Assembly (NCBI GenBank): GCA_012270865.1
Contig: JAAXHL010000096.1
Coordinates: forward strand, 26,769-90,768
DNA: 64,000 bases
Source: Candidatus Poribacteria bacterium
GTDB taxonomy: Bacteria; Poribacteria; WGA-4E; WGA-3G
Reading direction: 5' to 3'
This document shows positions 7,796 through 64,000 of the stretch, in pieces. Below the pieces are notes generated by a model. It saw only the letters and a list, made by a program, of their open reading frames with translations, did no database searches and had not been told where the DNA came from. The position numbers and the translations under genes are program-made. Position 1 is the first letter of the stretch. The number at the start of each line of letters is the position of its first letter.

Positions 7796-9286
7796 TTATT
7801 GCATCGGTATGACAGAGACTGAGATATTTGAGAATGTATAGAAGATATTCAGGAACCCGATGAAAATTGTGGGAATCACAAATGTGCTCAACAATGCGAA
7901 GGTGCCGGTGGAGAAGGAGACGCGATCGGTATCCTCGTCTGCGTCTTCAAAATACATTGCTTTGAAGATACGGGCATAATAGTAGAGGGAGACCACGCTG
8001 TTTAGTAAGCCGACGAGTGCAAGCCAGTAATACCCCTGTTCGAGGACTGCGGTGAAGAGTAGCCACTTTCCGAAGAAGCCAGCGAACGGTGGAATTCCCG
8101 TCAGAGAAGCGAGGAAGATGACCATTGCGATGGCGATTAATGGTGCGCGTGAGCCGAGTCCACGATACCCGTCAATTGTTTCACTTCCCATCTCGTTTGC
8201 GACGAGGACGACGACATAGAATGCGCCTAAGTTCATAAAGAGGTAGACGATGAGATAGAAAAGGATTGCACCGATACCTTCGGAGGTTCGCAAAACACCG
8301 CCCATCAAAAGGTATCCGCCGTGTGCGATGCTTGAGTATGCTAATAAACGTTTGACGTTCTGTTGTGGAAGTGCTGCGAGATTCCCGACGGTCATTGTCA
8401 ATGCGGAGACGATTGCTAACATGAGGGGCCAGTCAACAGATTCCATCAGTCCAGTGGAGCCGAACCCTGTATAGAAAAACCGGATAAATAGTGCAAATCC
8501 GGCAGATTTTGAGGCCACGGATAAGAAAGCGGTTATCGGGATGGGTGCGCCTTCGTAAACGTCAGGGGACCACATGTGAAAGGGGACGGAGGCTATTTTG
8601 TAACCGATGCCTGCGAGGACAAAGGTTAGCGCGATTAAGACGGCGAGGGGTGCTACCTCCCCTGAGGCGAGGAGTTCGGTGAGCCGTCCGCCGATTTGTG
8701 TCAGGTCGCCAGTCCCTGCCATTCCGAAGAGGAGCGAGAGCCCGAACAGCATTGTTCCAGATGCGACTGCGCCGTAGGTGATGTATTTGAATGCGGCTTC
8801 ACTTGATCGCGGGCTATGCGTCAAGAACCCAGCGAGAATATAGGAGGTAAGGCTTACTGTCTCCAATGCGATAAAAATCATCAACAGATTCGTTGACGAA
8901 GCCATGAGAAACATGCCGAGGGTGATGGCTAATAGGAGTGCGTAGTATTCGCCTTTTAAACGCGCGTCAAGTTCCTCAGAACGGAGTGAAAAGAGGATTG
9001 TAGCGGCGGTTGCGAGGAGTAGCAGTACCTTGAAGAATGTCGAAAATACATCCAGTTGGATCATTCCCAAAAAGAGGGAGATGGGTTCTTCTTTACCGAA
9101 GGAAAAATGTATGAAAAGGACGGCGGCAAGTGTACAGAGACACCCGACGAGCGCGAGATGCGCGACCGCGACACTCTCCCTGTTTTTTACAACGAGGTCA
9201 AGAATGATAACGGCAACGGCAAAAATTACGAGTAAGATTTCTGGGCTGAAATATAGGAGACTGTCAATATTGCTTAAAGGTTGCAT
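7796..9286 (-). CDS. nuoN: NADH-quinone oxidoreductase subunit N
   Basis: Membrane antiporter-like subunit; SFPFHMWSPDVYEGAP-type motif (ASVPFHMWSPDVYEGAPIPITAF); operon position. Confidence 0.95.
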   Translation of the reverse strand: MQPLSNIDSLLYFSPEILLVIFAVAVIILDLVVKNRESVAVAHLALVGCLCTLAAVLFIHFSFGKEEPISLFLGMIQLDVFSTFFKVLLLLATAATILFSLRSEELDARLKGEYYALLLAITLGMFLMASSTNLLMIFIALETVSLTSYILAGFLTHSPRSSEAAFKYITYGAVASGTMLFGLSLLFGMAGTGDLTQIGGRLTELLASGEVAPLAVLIALTFVLAGIGYKIASVPFHMWSPDVYEGAPIPITAFLSVASKSAGFALFIRFFYTGFGSTGLMESVDWPLMLAIVSALTMTVGNLAALPQQNVKRLLAYSSIAHGGYLLMGGVLRTSEGIGAILFYLIVYLFMNLGAFYVVVLVANEMGSETIDGYRGLGSRAPLIAIAMVIFLASLTGIPPFAGFFGKWLLFTAVLEQGYYWLALVGLLNSVVSLYYYARIFKAMYFEDADEDTDRVSFSTGTFALLSTFVIPTIFIGFLNIFYTFSNISVSVIPMQ

Positions 9287-9301: not shown

Positions 9302-10831
9302 CTATATCGCATGCAGGACGCTTAAGAGATTGGTCACCGATTCTCTGAACATATCAATCGCGAGGTTGGGCCAGACACCGAGTAAAACGGTTAAAATTGC
9401 GAGTGGTACCAGTGTCAGGATTTCACGTCCATTGATTTCTGGGAGGTCCTCATATTTCGGATTGAGGTTTCCTAAGAAGACTCTTTGCAATGTCCAGAGG
9501 AAGTATGCAGCACCGACGACAATACCGATTGTGGACAAAATGGTCAACCATTTGAAATTCTGGTAGGCACCGAGTAATGAGAGTGCTTCTCCGACAAATC
9601 CGCTCAAGCCGGGTAGTCCCAGAGAAGCCATGAACGCGAGCGTGGTAATACCGGTGTAGACAGGCATTCTGGTGCCGAGACCACCGAAACCGTTGATTTC
9701 GCGGTGGTGTGCTCTGTCGTAGAGGACACCGACGAGGAGGAAGAGCATTGCGCTGATGACACCGTGGTTAAACATCTGGAGGATCGCTCCGGTGATGCCT
9801 GTGTCATTTCGTGCTGCGAGTCCGAGGATAACGAACCCCATGTGTCCGATACTGGAGTAGGCGACCAACTTCTTAAAGTCGGTTTGTGCGAGTGCGCAGA
9901 AGGAACCGTAGACGATATTGATGAATCCGAGCAGTGCGAGGCTGTTGCCCCAGAAACCGATTCCGTTGGTAAAATGGTCTAAACCTTGTGGAAACATCGC
10001 CATGTTCACGCGAACCAGTCCGTAAGTTCCCATTTTTAGGAGGATACCCGCGAGGATAACACTGATGGCTGTGGGTGCTTCGACGTGTGCATCGGGGAGC
10101 CAGGTGTGGAACGGGAAGATCGGTACTTTAACAGCGAACCCGATAAAGAAACCGAGGAATACCCACATTTGGAAACGTGGATCGGCGAGTGCATGTCCTT
10201 CTGTAGATGCTAAGGTGATGAGTGTCGGAATATCGAACGTTCGTAAACCTTCTACCACCCCGTTAACGATATTACTGTTGAGATAGACGGCTATCATCGC
10301 GATGAGCATTAGTACACTGCCGAAAAGGGTATAGAGGAAGAACTTAATGGCAGCGTATTCGCGGCGGGGGCCACCCCAGATACCGATCAGGAAATACATC
10401 GGTAGTAGGGTCAGTTCAAAGAAGACGTAGAATAGGAAAAGGTCTAACGCAGCGAAGAAACCGAGCATCCCTGTCTCAAGTAGCAGGAACAGTGCCATAT
10501 ACGCCTTGATACCCTTTTCGATGTTGCGCCACGATGCGATAACGCAGATCGGACCTAAGAGCGCCGTAAGGAGCAGCAGCGTCACGCTGAGTCCATCAAT
10601 GCCGATGTGATATTGGATATTGAATGCATCAATCCAATCAACAGGACCGTGGACGTACTGCGTGCCAGCGGTTGATCGGTCGTAGGAAATGAATAAGTAC
10701 ACTGCGAGTGCGAGTGGAATGAGTGTAAAAATGAGCGTAACGCGTTTAACCAGTTCCTCCGATTCGCGCGGTAGCAATAAAACAACAATCATTCCCAGCA
10801 ACGGGATAAAAATCATTAGCGACAATAACAT
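9302..10831 (-). CDS. nuoM: NADH-quinone oxidoreductase subunit M
   Basis: KVPIFPFHTWLPDAHVEAPTAISVILAGILLKMGTYG motif. Confidence 0.95.
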   Translation of the reverse strand: MLLSLMIFIPLLGMIVVLLLPRESEELVKRVTLIFTLIPLALAVYLFISYDRSTAGTQYVHGPVDWIDAFNIQYHIGIDGLSVTLLLLTALLGPICVIASWRNIEKGIKAYMALFLLLETGMLGFFAALDLFLFYVFFELTLLPMYFLIGIWGGPRREYAAIKFFLYTLFGSVLMLIAMIAVYLNSNIVNGVVEGLRTFDIPTLITLASTEGHALADPRFQMWVFLGFFIGFAVKVPIFPFHTWLPDAHVEAPTAISVILAGILLKMGTYGLVRVNMAMFPQGLDHFTNGIGFWGNSLALLGFINIVYGSFCALAQTDFKKLVAYSSIGHMGFVILGLAARNDTGITGAILQMFNHGVISAMLFLLVGVLYDRAHHREINGFGGLGTRMPVYTGITTLAFMASLGLPGLSGFVGEALSLLGAYQNFKWLTILSTIGIVVGAAYFLWTLQRVFLGNLNPKYEDLPEINGREILTLVPLAILTVLLGVWPNLAIDMFRESVTNLLSVLHAI

Positions 10832-10946: not shown

Positions 10947-13151
<2,205 letters not shown>

Positions 13152-13317: not shown

Positions 13318-13635
13318 TTATCCTTTCAAAGTATCCACTTCGTTTGGACGTATACTCCCGAATTCGCGGTAGATTGCGAGAATGATTGCTAAAAAAACAG
13401 CGGCTTCGGCTGCAGCGAGCACGATCCCAAAAATAGCGATAATCTGTCCGCTGAGGAGGCTATCGATGTCCTCTGGTGTCATAAAACGCGAGAACGCGGC
13501 GAAGTTTAGGTTACAGGAATTAAGGATAAGTTCAATACCCATCAAAATACTGATGGCGTTCCGACGCGTCAAGACAGCGAAGATACCGAGCGTAAACAAA
13601 ATCGCGCTGATCACAAGATAGTGTTGTAAGGTCAT
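13318..13635 (-). CDS. nuoK: NADH-quinone oxidoreductase subunit K
   Basis: Small 3-TM subunit; GIELILNSCNLNF motif; operon position. Confidence 0.95.
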   Translation of the reverse strand: MTLQHYLVISAILFTLGIFAVLTRRNAISILMGIELILNSCNLNFAAFSRFMTPEDIDSLLSGQIIAIFGIVLAAAEAAVFLAIILAIYREFGSIRPNEVDTLKG

Positions 13636-13638
13636 TTT

Positions 13639-14172
13639 TTAGTCCCTGACCTCCTTTCGAGAAATCAGGGCGGCTCCGATTAAGGCGACTAACAGTAGCA
13701 CGGAGACGACCTCAAACGGCAAGAGAAAGGGTCCTTTGAGAATGAGTTCACCGATCCGCTCTGTGGTTGGTGCCAGTGCTGTGCCGTCGTCAATGCGGTT
13801 TTTCCAAACGGGTGTATTGGCGATGACGGTCAAGAGTAGCATAAAGAGTGCTAAGGCGACAATGCCACCGAGTAGAAGCTGCCCGCGCTCAATATGGCTT
13901 TTAATATGGCGGGGGATCTCAAAGTGTCCACTTGTCATCATGACTCCGAACAGGATGAGGACGAGGATACCACCGACGTAGACGATGACTTGCGTTGCTG
14001 CGAGGAAATCTGCTTGTAAAAAGACGTAGAGTCCTGCGACACCGAAAAGTGTTACCATAAGCGAGAAGGCTGCATGGACGATGTTTCGCACGGTGACGAC
14101 AAGGAGTGCCGAGGCGACTGTCATAAGTGCGAAGCCATAAAAAATAAAGGTTTTAAGTGTAAATTCTTCCAT
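13639..14172 (-). CDS. nuoJ: NADH-quinone oxidoreductase subunit J
   Basis: NIVHAAFSLMVTLFGVAGLYVFLQADFLAATQVIVYVGGILVLILF motif. Confidence 0.95.
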   Translation of the reverse strand: MEEFTLKTFIFYGFALMTVASALLVVTVRNIVHAAFSLMVTLFGVAGLYVFLQADFLAATQVIVYVGGILVLILFGVMMTSGHFEIPRHIKSHIERGQLLLGGIVALALFMLLLTVIANTPVWKNRIDDGTALAPTTERIGELILKGPFLLPFEVVSVLLLVALIGAALISRKEVRD

Positions 14173-14411: not shown

Positions 14412-15125
14412 CTACAAAGCGGTATTTGTTTCTTCTGTCTTATTGTACATCTCCTGCTTGTCGAAGCTGAAGATGAGTTCTGACCGATCGAATTTAGAAT
14501 ACTCAATTCCTTCAAGGGTGTCCTTCATTGTGAGGCACTCTGTCGGGCAGACTTCGGTGCAAAGTCCACAATACATGCAGAGGGACATATCGATATCAAA
14601 CTTGTCAAGATAAAAGACGACGGGGTTTCGGGTGACGATTCGCGATATTTCGTCGCCTGAGACGGTCTGAATTCGGCTCTCGTCGCCTGATGCTTCAAGA
14701 CGGTCTATGACCTCCTGCTCCCCTTGGCGAGAGGTTGTATTTGTGACGGTTATTGACTCTTCCGATCTTATTTTTTTGTCGTCGCCTTCAATGATACCGA
14801 TGATTTCGCGTCCGTCTTTGAGGTGAATGACGTTCATGCTATCCCAGAGTTGTTCACCTTTCGGGAGTTTAGTGGCATCAATCATAATACAATCGACGGG
14901 ACAGATCATTTCGCACTTTTTACATCCGATACAATCTTCAGTACGGTTATAGAGCTGCCCGCGATACCCTTTCGGAATTTCTCGGACGTTCTGTTTCTTT
15001 TCGTAATCGTGTTCATAAGGGTATTGATGCGTGACGTTCGGTTCAAAGAACTGCCTAATTGTTACGCGCATACCGACGAGTACGGTGTAAACGCCTCTGT
15101 AGATGTTTCGTATGTATTTCTCCAT
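14412..15125 (-). CDS. nuoI: NADH-quinone oxidoreductase subunit I with an expanded inter-cluster region
   Basis: Two 4Fe-4S motifs, CIGCKKCEMICP and CMYCGLCTEVCP, with first cysteines 118 residues apart. Confidence 0.92.
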   Translation of the reverse strand: MEKYIRNIYRGVYTVLVGMRVTIRQFFEPNVTHQYPYEHDYEKKQNVREIPKGYRGQLYNRTEDCIGCKKCEMICPVDCIMIDATKLPKGEQLWDSMNVIHLKDGREIIGIIEGDDKKIRSEESITVTNTTSRQGEQEVIDRLEASGDESRIQTVSGDEISRIVTRNPVVFYLDKFDIDMSLCMYCGLCTEVCPTECLTMKDTLEGIEYSKFDRSELIFSFDKQEMYNKTEETNTAL

Positions 15126-15155: not shown

Positions 15156-16427
15156 CTAACTCGGTTGTGGTGCTGGCTTTTGTGCCATCACGCGTCCGGC
15201 GATTGTATACGCGACGATGAGTCCGGTATAGATAATTGCACAGCTGATTCCTATGCTCCATACGCTATCGTGCTCAAAAATGAGACCCCAGATGCCTGTG
15301 CCTAAGATGTTGAAGAAGGCGATCGGGATGAAGTATTTCCAGCAGAGATTCATGAGTTGATCTACTCGTAGGCGTGGCAGCGTCCATCGCAGCCACATCA
15401 TTAGGAAAACGAGTGCCAGGGTTTTGATAACGAAGCCGGGCATCCCGCCGAGGATGTCGTATCCGGGTAAGGCACCTTCCCACCCCCCAAGGAAGAGTGT
15501 CACACCGATTGCACTGACGGCGAACATATTCGCGTATTCAGCGATAAAGAAGAGTGCGAACCGCATTCCGCTATATTCGGTATGGAAGCCTGCGACGATT
15601 TCGGACTCGGCTTCGGGCAAATCAAAGGGTGTCCGGTTTACCTCAGCAATAGCGGATATGAAGAAGATAAAGAATGCGATAAAGGTAAACGGTGTTCGGA
15701 AGATGAGCCAACTGAAAACGCCGTTGGATTGACTACTTACAATATCTGTCATGCTCAAACTTCCCACGAGCATAACGACTGTGAGGATAGAGAGCCCGAG
15801 CGGGATTTCATAACTGACGATTTGGGCGGCGGAGCGTAAAGACCCTAAGAGCGACCATTTGCTGTTTGATGACCAGCCTGCCATAATCACACCCATCACG
15901 ATCACAGAGGAGATCGCCATGATATAGAAGATGCCGATGTTGAAGTCGCCAGGAATAGGGATTCCATCACCAAATGGAATGGCGGCGAAAACAGCGAAAG
16001 AGCAGGCGAAGATGATGTACGGGGCAAGAAGAAACAGGAGTTTGTCGCCTTGCGGCGGAATAAAGTCTTCTTTGAAAATGAGTTTTATACCGTCGGCTAA
16101 GGTCTGAAGTGTCCCCCACGGGCCAACACGCATGGGCCCTGTCCGATTTTGAAACCGGGCGGCGACTTTTCGTTCTGCAAGCACCAACACCAAAGGGAGT
16201 AGTGGAACAACCGCAACGAAAATGCCTGCGAAAGCAAACATAACGAGGACTGTACCTAATTCTACAGGAAAGTGAGCAGCGACTGCTTCTGGCAGTCTCG
16301 GCATTAAAACGTTCTGTATGAATTCCTCTGCCCAATTGAGTTTCTCTTGTAGGTTTATGTTGGGGAAGAACCCTTCAGATACATTGAAATCTGACAAACC
16401 TGCGAACATTGCCCTAAAGTCCGACAT
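15156..16427 (-). CDS. nuoH: NADH-quinone oxidoreductase subunit H
   Basis: RTGPMRVGPWGTLQTLADGIKLIFKED and EVNRTPFDLPEAESE motifs. Confidence 0.95.
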   Translation of the reverse strand: MSDFRAMFAGLSDFNVSEGFFPNINLQEKLNWAEEFIQNVLMPRLPEAVAAHFPVELGTVLVMFAFAGIFVAVVPLLPLVLVLAERKVAARFQNRTGPMRVGPWGTLQTLADGIKLIFKEDFIPPQGDKLLFLLAPYIIFACSFAVFAAIPFGDGIPIPGDFNIGIFYIMAISSVIVMGVIMAGWSSNSKWSLLGSLRSAAQIVSYEIPLGLSILTVVMLVGSLSMTDIVSSQSNGVFSWLIFRTPFTFIAFFIFFISAIAEVNRTPFDLPEAESEIVAGFHTEYSGMRFALFFIAEYANMFAVSAIGVTLFLGGWEGALPGYDILGGMPGFVIKTLALVFLMMWLRWTLPRLRVDQLMNLCWKYFIPIAFFNILGTGIWGLIFEHDSVWSIGISCAIIYTGLIVAYTIAGRVMAQKPAPQPS

Positions 16428-16471: not shown

Positions 16472-17677
16472 TTACCTGTCAACCTCTCCCATCACGATAT
16501 CGATACTGCCGATAATGGCGATAATATCTGCGACCATCAAGCCGTGGCTGAGTTCTTGTAGTGCGCTCAAAGCACTGAAGCAGGGGGAGCGTCCTTTGAC
16601 GCGCACCGGCTTCGGTGTTCCGTCGCTGACGATATAGAATCCGAGTTCACCGCGGGGTGCTTCGCTGCGGAAATAGATTTCACCTGGTGGTGGACGGACG
16701 GCTTTTAAATCTGCCATGACAGGGCCATCGGGGAGTCCTTCTGCCAAAATCTGTCGAACGATCCTAACGGACTGTTTCATTTCATCCATGCGTATTTTGT
16801 AGCGGCTCCAGCAGTCGCCGACCACTGCGCCGAGTTCTGGTACATCAACAGCGACGGGGACATCGTATTCAAATCTGTCATAGATGGAGTAAGGTTCGTC
16901 TCGGCGGAGGTCCCAATCCACACCGGAACCACGGAGGTTGGGGCCGGTTGCGCCGTAACTGAGTGCCATCTCTGCTGACATCACAGCGACCTCAGTCGTG
17001 CGTTCTGCGAAGATACTGTTTTTTGTTAGGAGTTCGTTGTACTCGTCAATCATCGGTTCAAAATAGTCTAAAAACTGCTCTATCTCGTCAAGATAGTTCT
17101 GTTCGGCAATGGAACCGGGTTCCATTGGAATGATTTCGGAGACCCCGCCGATTCGGATGTAGTTATAGGTGAGGCGTGCGCCGCAAACTTTTTCAAAAAG
17201 GAGGAGTAGGCGTTCACGGTCGCGAAAGGCGTAGAGGAACGGCGTAAATGCGCCGATGTCCATTCCATAGGTTCCGAAAGAGAGGAGATGGCTTGCGATA
17301 CGGTTTAGTTCGCAGATAAGCACTCGTAAGTATTCGGCTCGTTCTGGTATCTCAAATTTTTTGCTTTCGTCTGCTGCCATTAATTTCTCGACGGCGAGGC
17401 AGAATCCCCAATTTTGGTTCATCGCCGCGACGTAGTCCATCCGGTCAGTGAACGGTATGATTTGGGGGTAAGAGAGGTTCTCCGAGTGTTTCTCAAAACA
17501 GCGATGCAGGTAACCGATGTGTGGGATTGCTTCACGGACGACCTCACCATCCAATCTCAATTCTAAGCGTAGCACACCGTGTGTGCTTGGGTGCTGAGGT
17601 CCCATGTTCACGACCATTTCATCGGCGAACGGTTTTAGTTCTATGATTTTGCTTTCGGTTTGTTGTGTGTTTTCCAT
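16472..17677 (-). CDS. nuoD: NADH-quinone oxidoreductase subunit D
   Basis: VNMGPQHPSTHGVLRLELRLDGE motif. Confidence 0.95.
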   Translation of the reverse strand: MENTQQTESKIIELKPFADEMVVNMGPQHPSTHGVLRLELRLDGEVVREAIPHIGYLHRCFEKHSENLSYPQIIPFTDRMDYVAAMNQNWGFCLAVEKLMAADESKKFEIPERAEYLRVLICELNRIASHLLSFGTYGMDIGAFTPFLYAFRDRERLLLLFEKVCGARLTYNYIRIGGVSEIIPMEPGSIAEQNYLDEIEQFLDYFEPMIDEYNELLTKNSIFAERTTEVAVMSAEMALSYGATGPNLRGSGVDWDLRRDEPYSIYDRFEYDVPVAVDVPELGAVVGDCWSRYKIRMDEMKQSVRIVRQILAEGLPDGPVMADLKAVRPPPGEIYFRSEAPRGELGFYIVSDGTPKPVRVKGRSPCFSALSALQELSHGLMVADIIAIIGSIDIVMGEVDR

Positions 17678-17986: not shown

Positions 17987-18472
17987 CTAATACGGAACTC
18001 GCATACCGCGGTAAATTTCTGGCTCCTTATAATCTTTACGTAGCGGGTATCCATCCCAATCGTCGGGCAGTAGGATCCGGCGGAGGTCGTTGTGTCCTTC
18101 AAAGAATACCCCGTAGAGGTCATAAGCTTCCCGTTCATGCCAGTCTGCTGTTTTCCAGATATGCGAGACGCTCGGCAGGTGTGGGTCGGTTTTTGGGACT
18201 GTTGCTTTCAGCACTACACTATGTCGGTGTTTCATCGCATAGAGGTGGTAAACGACAGCAAAATCTTCGTCCTTTGCATTTAAATCTACGCCGCTGAGAC
18301 ACATCAAGGAATCGAACGCCAATGTATCGGTTTCGGCGAGGTATTGACATACCTCAGCGATTGCTGCGGGAGCGATCTGTATGCTTGGGTCTCCAGCCGT
18401 TTCGTTGTCGAATGCGAGAACGGTTTCACCGAACTGGGCGGTTAGTGCTTCATAGATTTCTTCGGGTTTCAC
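17987..18472 (-). CDS. nuoC: NADH-quinone oxidoreductase subunit C
   Basis: WHEREAYDLYGVFFEGHNDLRRILLPDDWDGYPLRKDY motif. Confidence 0.95.
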   Translation of the reverse strand: MKPEEIYEALTAQFGETVLAFDNETAGDPSIQIAPAAIAEVCQYLAETDTLAFDSLMCLSGVDLNAKDEDFAVVYHLYAMKHRHSVVLKATVPKTDPHLPSVSHIWKTADWHEREAYDLYGVFFEGHNDLRRILLPDDWDGYPLRKDYKEPEIYRGMRVPY

Positions 18473-18490
18473 GTAATTTTAATCTCCATG

Positions 18491-18643
18491 ATCGCGACTA
18501 CAAGTCGCTCCTACAAATCAAGAATCGCAACTACAAGTCGCTCCTACAAATCAAGAATCGCGACCGCAAGTCGCTCCTACTATTAGATCGCGACTACAAG
18601 TCGCTCCTACAAATCAAGAATCGCAACTACAAGTCGCTCCTAC
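18491..18643 (+). repeat. Five tandem REP-like hairpins (ATC-GCGACT-ACA-AGTCGC-TCCTAC and variants) between nuoC and nuoB
   Basis: Copies near 18491, 18524, 18557, 18587 and 18620, spacing 30-33 nt. Confidence 0.95.
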
Positions 18644-18645
18644 CT

Positions 18646-19251
18646 TTAGGTGGTTTTTTCAGGGTTATCGTCTTTCTCAGTTGGTGTTTCTGCTTCAGCC
18701 GTAGGTTCTGTGCCCTCAATTTCATACCATTCTGTTTTGTCGAAGAGTCTTTTCAAGAATGGAACGTTTTCGCGTTTGGCGACGGTCTGCGTTTTAATTT
18801 TTTCTTGTAATTTGAGGAGTCCTTCAATAAGTGCTTCTGGACGTGGTGGGCATCCGGGTACGTAGACATCGACGGGTATAATTCGGTCAACGCCTTTGAG
18901 GACGTGGTATCCGTGTTGCCAGTAGGGTCCGCCGCTTGTTGCGCAGCTGCCCATAGAGATGACGTATTTCGGTTCTGGCATCTGTTCATAGAGGCGTCGA
19001 ATGCGTGTTGCCATCTTGAGTGTGACAGTTCCTGAGATTACCATAAGGTCGGACTGTCGTGGTGTTGCGCGAGGCACGCCTGCTCCGAATCGGTCGAGGT
19101 CGTAATTAGAGGCTGCGGTTGCCATAAACTCGATGGCACAGCATGCGAGTCCGAAGGTCATCGGCCAGAGTGCTGAAGAACGTGCCCAGTTGGCGACAGC
19201 GTCAACCGAGGTGACGATTACGTTTTTATCGAGTTTTTCATTAATTATCAT
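18646..19251 (-). CDS. nuoB: NADH-quinone oxidoreductase subunit B
   Basis: [16 protein letters not shown]...[38 protein letters not shown]; start [10 protein letters not shown] chosen, so it slightly overlaps nuoA. Confidence 0.95.
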
Positions 19252-19651
19252 AGCTTTCTTCCCTCCGGAGGGATTGGACTTCAAGCTGGGTGGATCGTAT
19301 CCATTCAAGGTCGCCTTTTGCCCAGACGTAAGCAAGCCCGACTAACAGGATCGCGATAAAGACGAGCATTTCCAAGAATGCGAAGAGACCGAAATCCCGA
19401 AAAACGACTGCCCATGGGAACAGGAAGACGACTTCCACATCGAAGATCAGGAAGATGAGCGCGATGACATAGAAGCGGGTGTTAAACTTGATACGCGTAT
19501 CGCCGATCGGGTCTTCACCGCATTCATAGGGGATGTACTTTTCGCCTGAGAATAATTTGGTGTGTAGGAGACGAGAGACCGTGAGATTTAGAACGACAAA
19601 TAGACAGCCGACAATCAAGAAGATTAGGACGTTTGCGAAGTTAAAAAGCAT
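19241..19651 (-). CDS. nuoA: NADH-quinone oxidoreductase subunit A
   Basis: [43 protein letters not shown] motif. Confidence 0.95.
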
Positions 19652-63011: not shown

Positions 63012-64000
63012 ATGGCAAAATACGATTTTGTAATCGCTGTAGGAGGGGCACCAGGTCAAGGTATTGACACCGTTGGCAAGAGCATGAGCCAAATCTGTGC
63101 TCGGCATGGTCTCCATGTTTATACCTATAGTGCTTACCAGTCCCTTATCCGCGGCGGTCATACCTTCCTTACCGTCAGAATCAGTTCCGAACCGGTTGCC
63201 AACCACGGCGATAAGATAGACATGATTATTGCGATGGATCGGAACAGCGTAGAAACCCACCTTCAGAATGTCGCACCCGGCGGCGCACTTATTTACAACA
63301 GTGATGATGTTAAAGCGGCACCTGAGCGCGATGACATCCAACTCTGTCCTATCTCCTATAGAGAGTTGTCCAATAACACCGATAGACCTAAGAAGATGCT
63401 GAACATCTGTATGTTTGGTGTTGCTCTGAAGATGGTTGGTGGCGACTTACAGGTACTTGAAGACATCATTAACCTTACATTCTCACGTAAAGGACAGGAG
63501 TTGGTGGATGCGAATATTGGCGTAGCGCGCGCGGGCTACAATCATGCCTCAGAACATTTCACAGCTTTTGAAATGCAGTTTGAGAAGCAGGAACCTGCGC
63601 TTGCGTTCATTGATGGGAATTCGGCAATGGCGATGGGTGGTGCAGCGGCGGGTGTCAAATTTTATGCAGCGTATCCGATGAGTCCATCGACGGGTGTCCT
63701 TCACTGGATGGCAGCGAATGCGCGAGACCTCGGTATTCTGGTGCGCCAATGTGAAGACGAAATTAGCGTTGTGAATATGGTTATCGGTGCAGCGCATGCG
63801 GGTAGTCGAGCGATGTGTGCCACGTCAGGTGGTGGTTTCGCTCTGATGTCAGAAGCCATCGGCAGTGCTGGAATGATGGAAATTCCGATTGTTGTTATTA
63901 ATGTTCAGCGTGGGGGTCCTTCGACAGGTCTACCTACGAAAACGGAGCAGGGAGATTTATGGCAGCTGCTCGGTGCGAGCCAAGGTGATTTTCCGAAAAT
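63012..64000 (+). CDS. 2-oxoacid:acceptor (ferredoxin) oxidoreductase alpha subunit, truncated by the window end
   Basis: MAKYDFVIAVGGAPGQGIDTVGKSMSQICARHGLHVYTYSAYQSLIRGGHTFLTVRIS...AGVKFYAAYPMSPSTGVLHW...VVINVQRGGPSTGLPTKTEQGDL. Not in the ORF track because it is open at the window edge. Confidence 0.93.
   Translation, partial: MAKYDFVIAVGGAPGQGIDTVGKSMSQICARHGLHVYTYSAYQSLIRGGHTFLTVRISSEPVANHGDKIDMIIAMDRNSVETHLQNVAPGGALIYNSDDVKAAPERDDIQLCPISYRELSNNTDRPKKMLNICMFGVALKMVGGDLQVLEDIINLTFSRKGQELVDANIGVARAGYNHASEHFTAFEMQFEKQEPALAFIDGNSAMAMGGAAAGVKFYAAYPMSPSTGVLHWMAANARDLGILVRQCEDEISVVNMVIGAAHAGSRAMCATSGGGFALMSEAIGSAGMMEIPIVVINVQRGGPSTGLPTKTEQGDLWQLLGASQGDFPK

Follow-up and report, generated by a model that had tools for sequence, protein, structure and literature searches.

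Photosynthetic complex I (NDH-1) lacks an NADH module, and in its subunit NdhI the electron donor docks on the hairpin that joins both 4Fe-4S motifs, with the small, SH3-like subunit NdhS beside it. In T. elongatus, ferredoxin is held by Lys86, Lys89 and Lys91 of NdhI together with lysines of NdhH (PMC7021789); the long NdhI hairpin and NdhH form the ferredoxin pocket, while NdhV braces the opposite side (PMC6992706). NdhS is located 25 A from ferredoxin and makes no contact with it (PMC7021789). Numbering of the solved NdhI from Cys63 of its first motif places the three lysines in the inter-motif linker, at the hairpin tip. It is to this end of the Fe-S chain that NuoG delivers electrons in complete complex I.

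The 11-subunit complex I-like enzymes encoded by nuoABCDHIJKLMN, for example in Desulfitobacterium, contain no nuoEFG; their direct donor is an open question, and a role as docking platform has been proposed (PMC11238625). In canonical NuoI/Nqo9/TYKY (TIGR01971), the distance from motif to motif is about 39-51 residues, and in cyanobacterial and plant NdhI it is 40. While the 11-subunit type of complex I is known, the domain that we describe here, inserted in its NuoI in the sponge-associated Poribacteria, appears to be new; no description of a barrel domain inserted in NuoI was found in the open-access literature, outside of which most subscription journals lie.

Complex I genes and the NuoI variant

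The window, by which we mean the whole stretch of 64,000 nucleotides of Poribacteria DNA analysed here, contains an operon for the 11 subunits NuoABCDHIJKLMN (Table 1), hereafter referred to as w-type. It resembles the 11-subunit enzymes in gene content and order and, like NDH-1, has no NADH module. The absence of nuoEFG had been stated in the initial annotation and holds for this operon, but the picture was incomplete, as a second operon with nuoEFG is present in the same genome (G000). This complete 14-subunit complex I (c-type) is encoded by nuoABCD, EFG and HJKLMN on L128 (G000:C99), and its short-linker nuoI stands alone on a third contig, after guaB (L116:10347-10895, G000:C37). The coexistence of a complete complex I and the barrel in NuoI set the Poribacteria w-type apart from 11-subunit enzymes such as that of Desulfitobacterium. 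One NuoG-type match per genome was found in families f1-f4, except for G030 with none. Because the window's genome has its one NuoG copy in the complete operon, the complex of the window is without a NuoG of its own. NuoB, NuoD and NuoI of the w-type have kept their cluster and quinone-site motifs.

Table 1. Positions of the complex I genes, the parts of NuoI and a further redox gene in the window.
Feature	Position	Strand	Remarks
nuoN	7796..9286	minus	window operon
nuoM	9302..10831	minus	window operon
nuoL	10947..13151	minus	window operon
nuoK	13318..13635	minus	window operon
nuoJ	13639..14172	minus	window operon
nuoI of the 11-subunit (w-type) complex I	14412..15125	minus	237 aa, barrel insert present
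Second 4Fe-4S motif CMYCGLCTEVCP	14544..14579	minus	NuoI residues 183-194
Insert, probable small LSm/SH3-like beta-barrel, in the hairpin between the 4Fe-4S motifs	14610..14846	minus	NuoI residues 94-172, 79 residues
Extra loop (approximate), strands 3-4	14670..14732	minus	residues ~132-152; pLDDT 45-47; from alignments and AlphaFold2
First 4Fe-4S motif CIGCKKCEMICP	14898..14933	minus	NuoI residues 65-76
nuoH	15156..16427	minus	window operon
nuoD, quinone-type	16472..17677	minus	GPQHPSTHG and DRMDY retained; without CxxC nickel motifs
nuoC	17987..18472	minus	window operon
nuoB	18646..19224	minus	N2 cluster cysteines retained (CC, GSC, GCPP)
nuoA	19241..19651	minus	operon order kept in L122 and L124
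2-oxoacid:acceptor (ferredoxin) oxidoreductase, alpha subunit	63012..64000, runs off the window	plus	TIGR03710, E 1.7e-116, residues 5-329

Two further features of the operon were observed. The predicted NuoL contains His/Asp/Glu-rich stretches that are unusual for this subunit, for example HAMHAHGHDDEHAHEHSEDAETGH and a second, His-rich one near HDTHAGDGHHGHGPAH. The gap between nuoC and nuoB (approximately 18480-18640) holds a repeated DNA unit, seen as YKSLLQIKNRN/D repeats in a plus-strand open reading frame (18322-18810).

The window nuoI is situated between nuoH and nuoJ. Its product shares with canonical NuoI the N-terminal region with its helix, both CxxCxxCxxxCP motifs and the conserved residues that flank them. 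The motifs (CIGCKKCEMICP from residue 65 and CMYCGLCTEVCP from residue 183) are, however, 118 residues apart; in the other NuoI of this genome, a count along the sequence gives 48. The 75-80 extra residues noted in the initial annotation and placed at 14610-14849 correspond to an insert of 79 residues at 14610-14846; relative to canonical NuoI, the motifs are separated by 67-79 additional residues. The protein scored below the family cut-off of TIGR01971 (E 3.5e-24, 84.7 bits against 113.05), with the match split in two. As the c-type NuoI also falls just under this cut-off (110 against 113.05), the cut-off alone is weak evidence, and judging from its sequence the window protein is a variant NuoI and not a non-member, despite its long linker and low score.

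The insert segment had no aligned counterpart in the NuoI, NdhI or TYKY chains among the PDB matches listed, searches of Pfam and PDB with its sequence gave no family above cut-off, and an insert profile found no further copies of the barrel in the genome. An artefact, frameshift or intein was ruled out, since the insert is in register across many independent assemblies.

Predicted fold of the insert

In the AlphaFold2 model of the whole NuoI, the insert forms five strands (residues 98-102, 107-112, 124-131, 153-156 and 160-164), the last two joined by a helical turn (157-159). The pLDDT of this block is mostly 65-77, drops below 50 in the loop 134-147, and is 59 for the whole chain. A compact homologue of 66 residues from family f2 (L026) was modelled at a pLDDT of 75.8, likewise with five strands and the same turn between strands 4 and 5. 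Disorder of the insert is ruled out by these models, except for the loop at residues 134-147 in f1.

A Foldseek search against PDB returned YgdR and other DUF903 proteins, Hfq and SmAP (TM 0.6-0.74, E 0.004-0.04), and the best 50 PDB matches were almost entirely proteins of the LSm fold; LSm proteins were already matched at the insert when the whole chain was searched. The DUF903 lipoproteins such as YgdR, which are not known to bind RNA, ranked above Hfq. The predicted strands and the turn between strands 4 and 5 are shared with YgdI/YgdR and Hfq/SmAP, although here the domain is inserted in a redox subunit rather than being a lipoprotein or RNA chaperone.

At the level of sequence, the relationship to LSm proteins is only suggestive. 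Pfam LSM (PF01423), the Pfam family matched by most members, was hit by eight of the 52 insert members, with a best E of 0.002 that does not pass the cut-off. One member gave weak, near full-length matches to YgdI/YgdR (E 0.011) and Lepto_7_Nterm (E 0.005-0.011 for the pair), and profile comparison with hhalign reached probabilities of 9% for YgdR and 0.9% for E. coli Hfq, which are not significant. The barrel of family f7 weakly matched the second half of the putative heme-binding domain TIGR02603 (positions 61-106, E 0.0034, 17.4 bits against a cut-off of 68), but the insert has no heme motif. We are highly confident that the insert is a domain and that it sits at the tip of the NuoI hairpin, which separates the motifs of clusters N6a and N6b. 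That this domain folds as an LSm/SH3-like barrel, the resemblance suggested by the initial annotation, is likely from the predicted strands and the structural matches.

Distribution and conservation

Altogether, 85 Poribacteria genomes were searched and NuoI was read from 114 loci. The insert occurred in all w-type NuoI read from the four families of the order (f1-f4), and is shared by the close relatives of the window's genome; it was also found in all those read from families f7 and f8. The motif spacing ranged from 99 to 118, with a short form of 99 being the commonest in f2 and f4. These compact barrels are missing about 19 residues that are present between strands 3 and 4 in f1 and in L024/G037 of f4. 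Dozens of independent assemblies carry the insert with the conserved motif LWDSMNVVHLKD..EI.G.IEGD, at NuoI identities of 58-94%. The c-type NuoI had no insert in the cases read. The barrel is a simple sequence marker by which the two coexisting types of complex I can be told apart. No w-type NuoB was found in f6, f9 and f10, while two f1 drafts (G006, G077) showed no w-type NuoI and one NuoB match only, which may represent assembly gaps. The barrel is present in the 11-subunit complex I of most Poribacteria carrying that complex.

Family f5 is the exception. Its genomes also have both types of complex I and its w-type operon is likewise without nuoEFG, but its w-type NuoI has a spacing of 51 and no barrel. 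The gene lies outside the operon, adjoining thiC-like genes, and most of the operon is found together elsewhere (L107/L117 of G038, L105/L121 of G048). A tree built from ten other subunits groups f5 in a single clade close to f7/f8, with weak support (91, from a short search and with long branches). The barrel state changes at most twice on this tree, and f5 may have lost the barrel or never have gained it.

A scan of genome contigs for the insert gave named matches that were all Poribacteria, and a search of plasmids gave one partial match. The NCBIfam NuoI models listed span short-linker NuoI as one stretch; together with the listed PDB NuoI chains, which have no counterpart of the insert, they argue, as indirect evidence, against a common occurrence of the insert outside of Poribacteria.

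The insert is under purifying selection, yet it is the fastest-evolving part of NuoI. Within f1, dN of the insert was 0.06-0.17 at a dS of about 0.4 to more than 2 (dN/dS about 0.1), compared to a dN of 0.00-0.12 in the flanking parts, and its identity was 75-89% against 82-100% for the remaining NuoI. The barrel alignment contains a near-invariant strand, WDSMN..HLKD, and an invariant core of K, G and G. The hairpin between the clusters of a very conserved respiratory subunit is evidently able to tolerate a whole folded domain.

Functional interpretation

By analogy with NDH-1, the Poribacteria barrel takes the place of the ferredoxin-binding tip of the NdhI hairpin. Because this tip is the ferredoxin site in NDH-1 and the NuoG end in complete complex I, the barrel would stand where the donor must come. 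We posit that the barrel may help to build the port through which electrons enter the w-type complex, as the ferredoxin dock on the NdhI hairpin suggests. Its task would be the docking or gating of a soluble donor. A ferredoxin reduced by 2-oxoacid:ferredoxin oxidoreductases is the most plausible candidate, and its electrons would pass via N6a, N6b and N2 to quinone. Being in the place of NuoG, the barrel could moreover prevent the other complex's NADH module from binding.

A barrel that acts as donor docking or gating module of a complex I without NADH module is in our opinion the best explanation overall, and one on which we are evenly divided. Donor docking may also be its main role, to which we would by analogy give not quite even credence. 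More tentatively, the barrel might make up an undescribed entry port at which a dedicated donor is recruited and the NADH module shut out, with the two complexes drawing on different electron pools. As part of this same reading, and just as tentatively, such a port might be a convergent equivalent, in fused form, of what the NdhS/NdhV/NdhO apparatus does. The two systems differ in that the barrel of NDH-1 is a separate subunit and its hairpin short and basic, whereas the barrel of Poribacteria forms part of the hairpin itself, has a mostly acidic character and finds LSm-type proteins rather than NdhS as structural matches. Being conserved in one lineage and located where the Fe-S chain meets its donor, the domain provides a concrete handle on the donor question of 11-subunit complex I (PMC11238625).

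A ferredoxin as donor is plausible because genes of the 2-oxoacid:ferredoxin oxidoreductase type are found in all 85 genomes of the phylum (PF01558, 2-oxoacid oxidoreductase family), because one of them lies in the window (Table 1), where it is a possible source of reduced ferredoxin, and because a polyferredoxin is encoded at L142:1060-1527. The latter is an acidic protein of 155 residues with four 4Fe-4S motifs and a net charge of -16, and its gene adjoins a guanylate kinase-like gene. A motif scan of the window found no ferredoxin gene, and hence none next to the operon.

That the insert could form a docking site for an alternative donor had been suggested in the initial annotation. Its position at the tip of the ferredoxin-binding NdhI hairpin favours this (PMC7021789, PMC6992706), while the mostly acidic barrel and the barrel-less f5 speak against it. 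The net charge of the insert is mostly -1 to -8 in f1 (0 or +1 in L075/L076) and +1 to +3 in f3, which does not fit a basic ferredoxin pocket on the NuoI hairpin. Together with f5, the acidity argues against the barrel being a simple ferredoxin magnet. Since f5 has a complex without nuoEFG and without the barrel, such a complex can do without the barrel, and this counts against donor docking, as does the moderate pLDDT (59 over the entire chain, 76 in the domain) against the explanation as a whole. Furthermore, NdhS beside the ferredoxin site does not touch ferredoxin, so that proximity of a barrel to the site does not imply donor binding.

The acidity of both the barrel and the polyferredoxin, the lack of a nearby donor gene in the window, the barrel-less f5 and the 25 A between NdhS and ferredoxin make support or insulation a serious rival. 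The barrel would then be a structural cap that fills the space of NuoG, stabilises the hairpin, shields N6a and blocks misdocking of the NADH module, with the donor binding elsewhere on NuoI or NuoD. Insulation would be useful in cells that have two complexes and one NuoG gene, and the subunits next to the NdhI hairpin, NdhS and NdhV, serve as supports. An insert can act as a brace, as in the NuoG of E. coli: its loop of 94 residues, together with extensions at the termini, makes the interface of NuoEFG with the core three times as large (PMC8357420). The faster evolution of the barrel is likewise what would be expected of a spacer, yet the near-invariance of its WDSMN..HLKD strand goes beyond the needs of a plain one, and f5 has both complexes to keep apart and a w-type NuoI without barrel. 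We consider this explanation possible, but somewhat improbable.

The same rapid evolution, the surface exposure of the hairpin in NdhI, the varying spacing among families (99-118) and the barrel-less f5 would also fit a lineage-specific and nearly neutral domain gain, placed in an exposed loop and serving no particular function. This is unlikely in view of the retention of the insert in the four families of the order and two further ones, its low dN/dS and invariant core, and the at most two changes of barrel state on the subunit tree. Binding of RNA or another small ligand by an LSm-like barrel that regulates the complex is very improbable: the RNA binders Hfq and SmAP are among the closest folds, but the barrel is tethered at both ends inside NuoI whereas LSm rings require oligomers, no match to an RNA-binding LSm family passes its cut-off, and the probability in the Hfq profile comparison is below 1%.

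With regard to the donor that the barrel may dock or gate, an orphan NuoE-NuoF fusion (L129:5958-7589) was considered as donor module and set aside, as it adjoins formate dehydrogenase genes in two genomes. In three genomes (L144:120-2819, L148:5024-7777, L149:2730-5450), the gene for the formate dehydrogenase alpha subunit is interrupted at an identical position (IDNCSRA*HAPT) by an in-frame TGA. The position is the usual selenocysteine site of the enzyme, and a NuoE-NuoF-type fusion adjoins the gene in L148 and L149.
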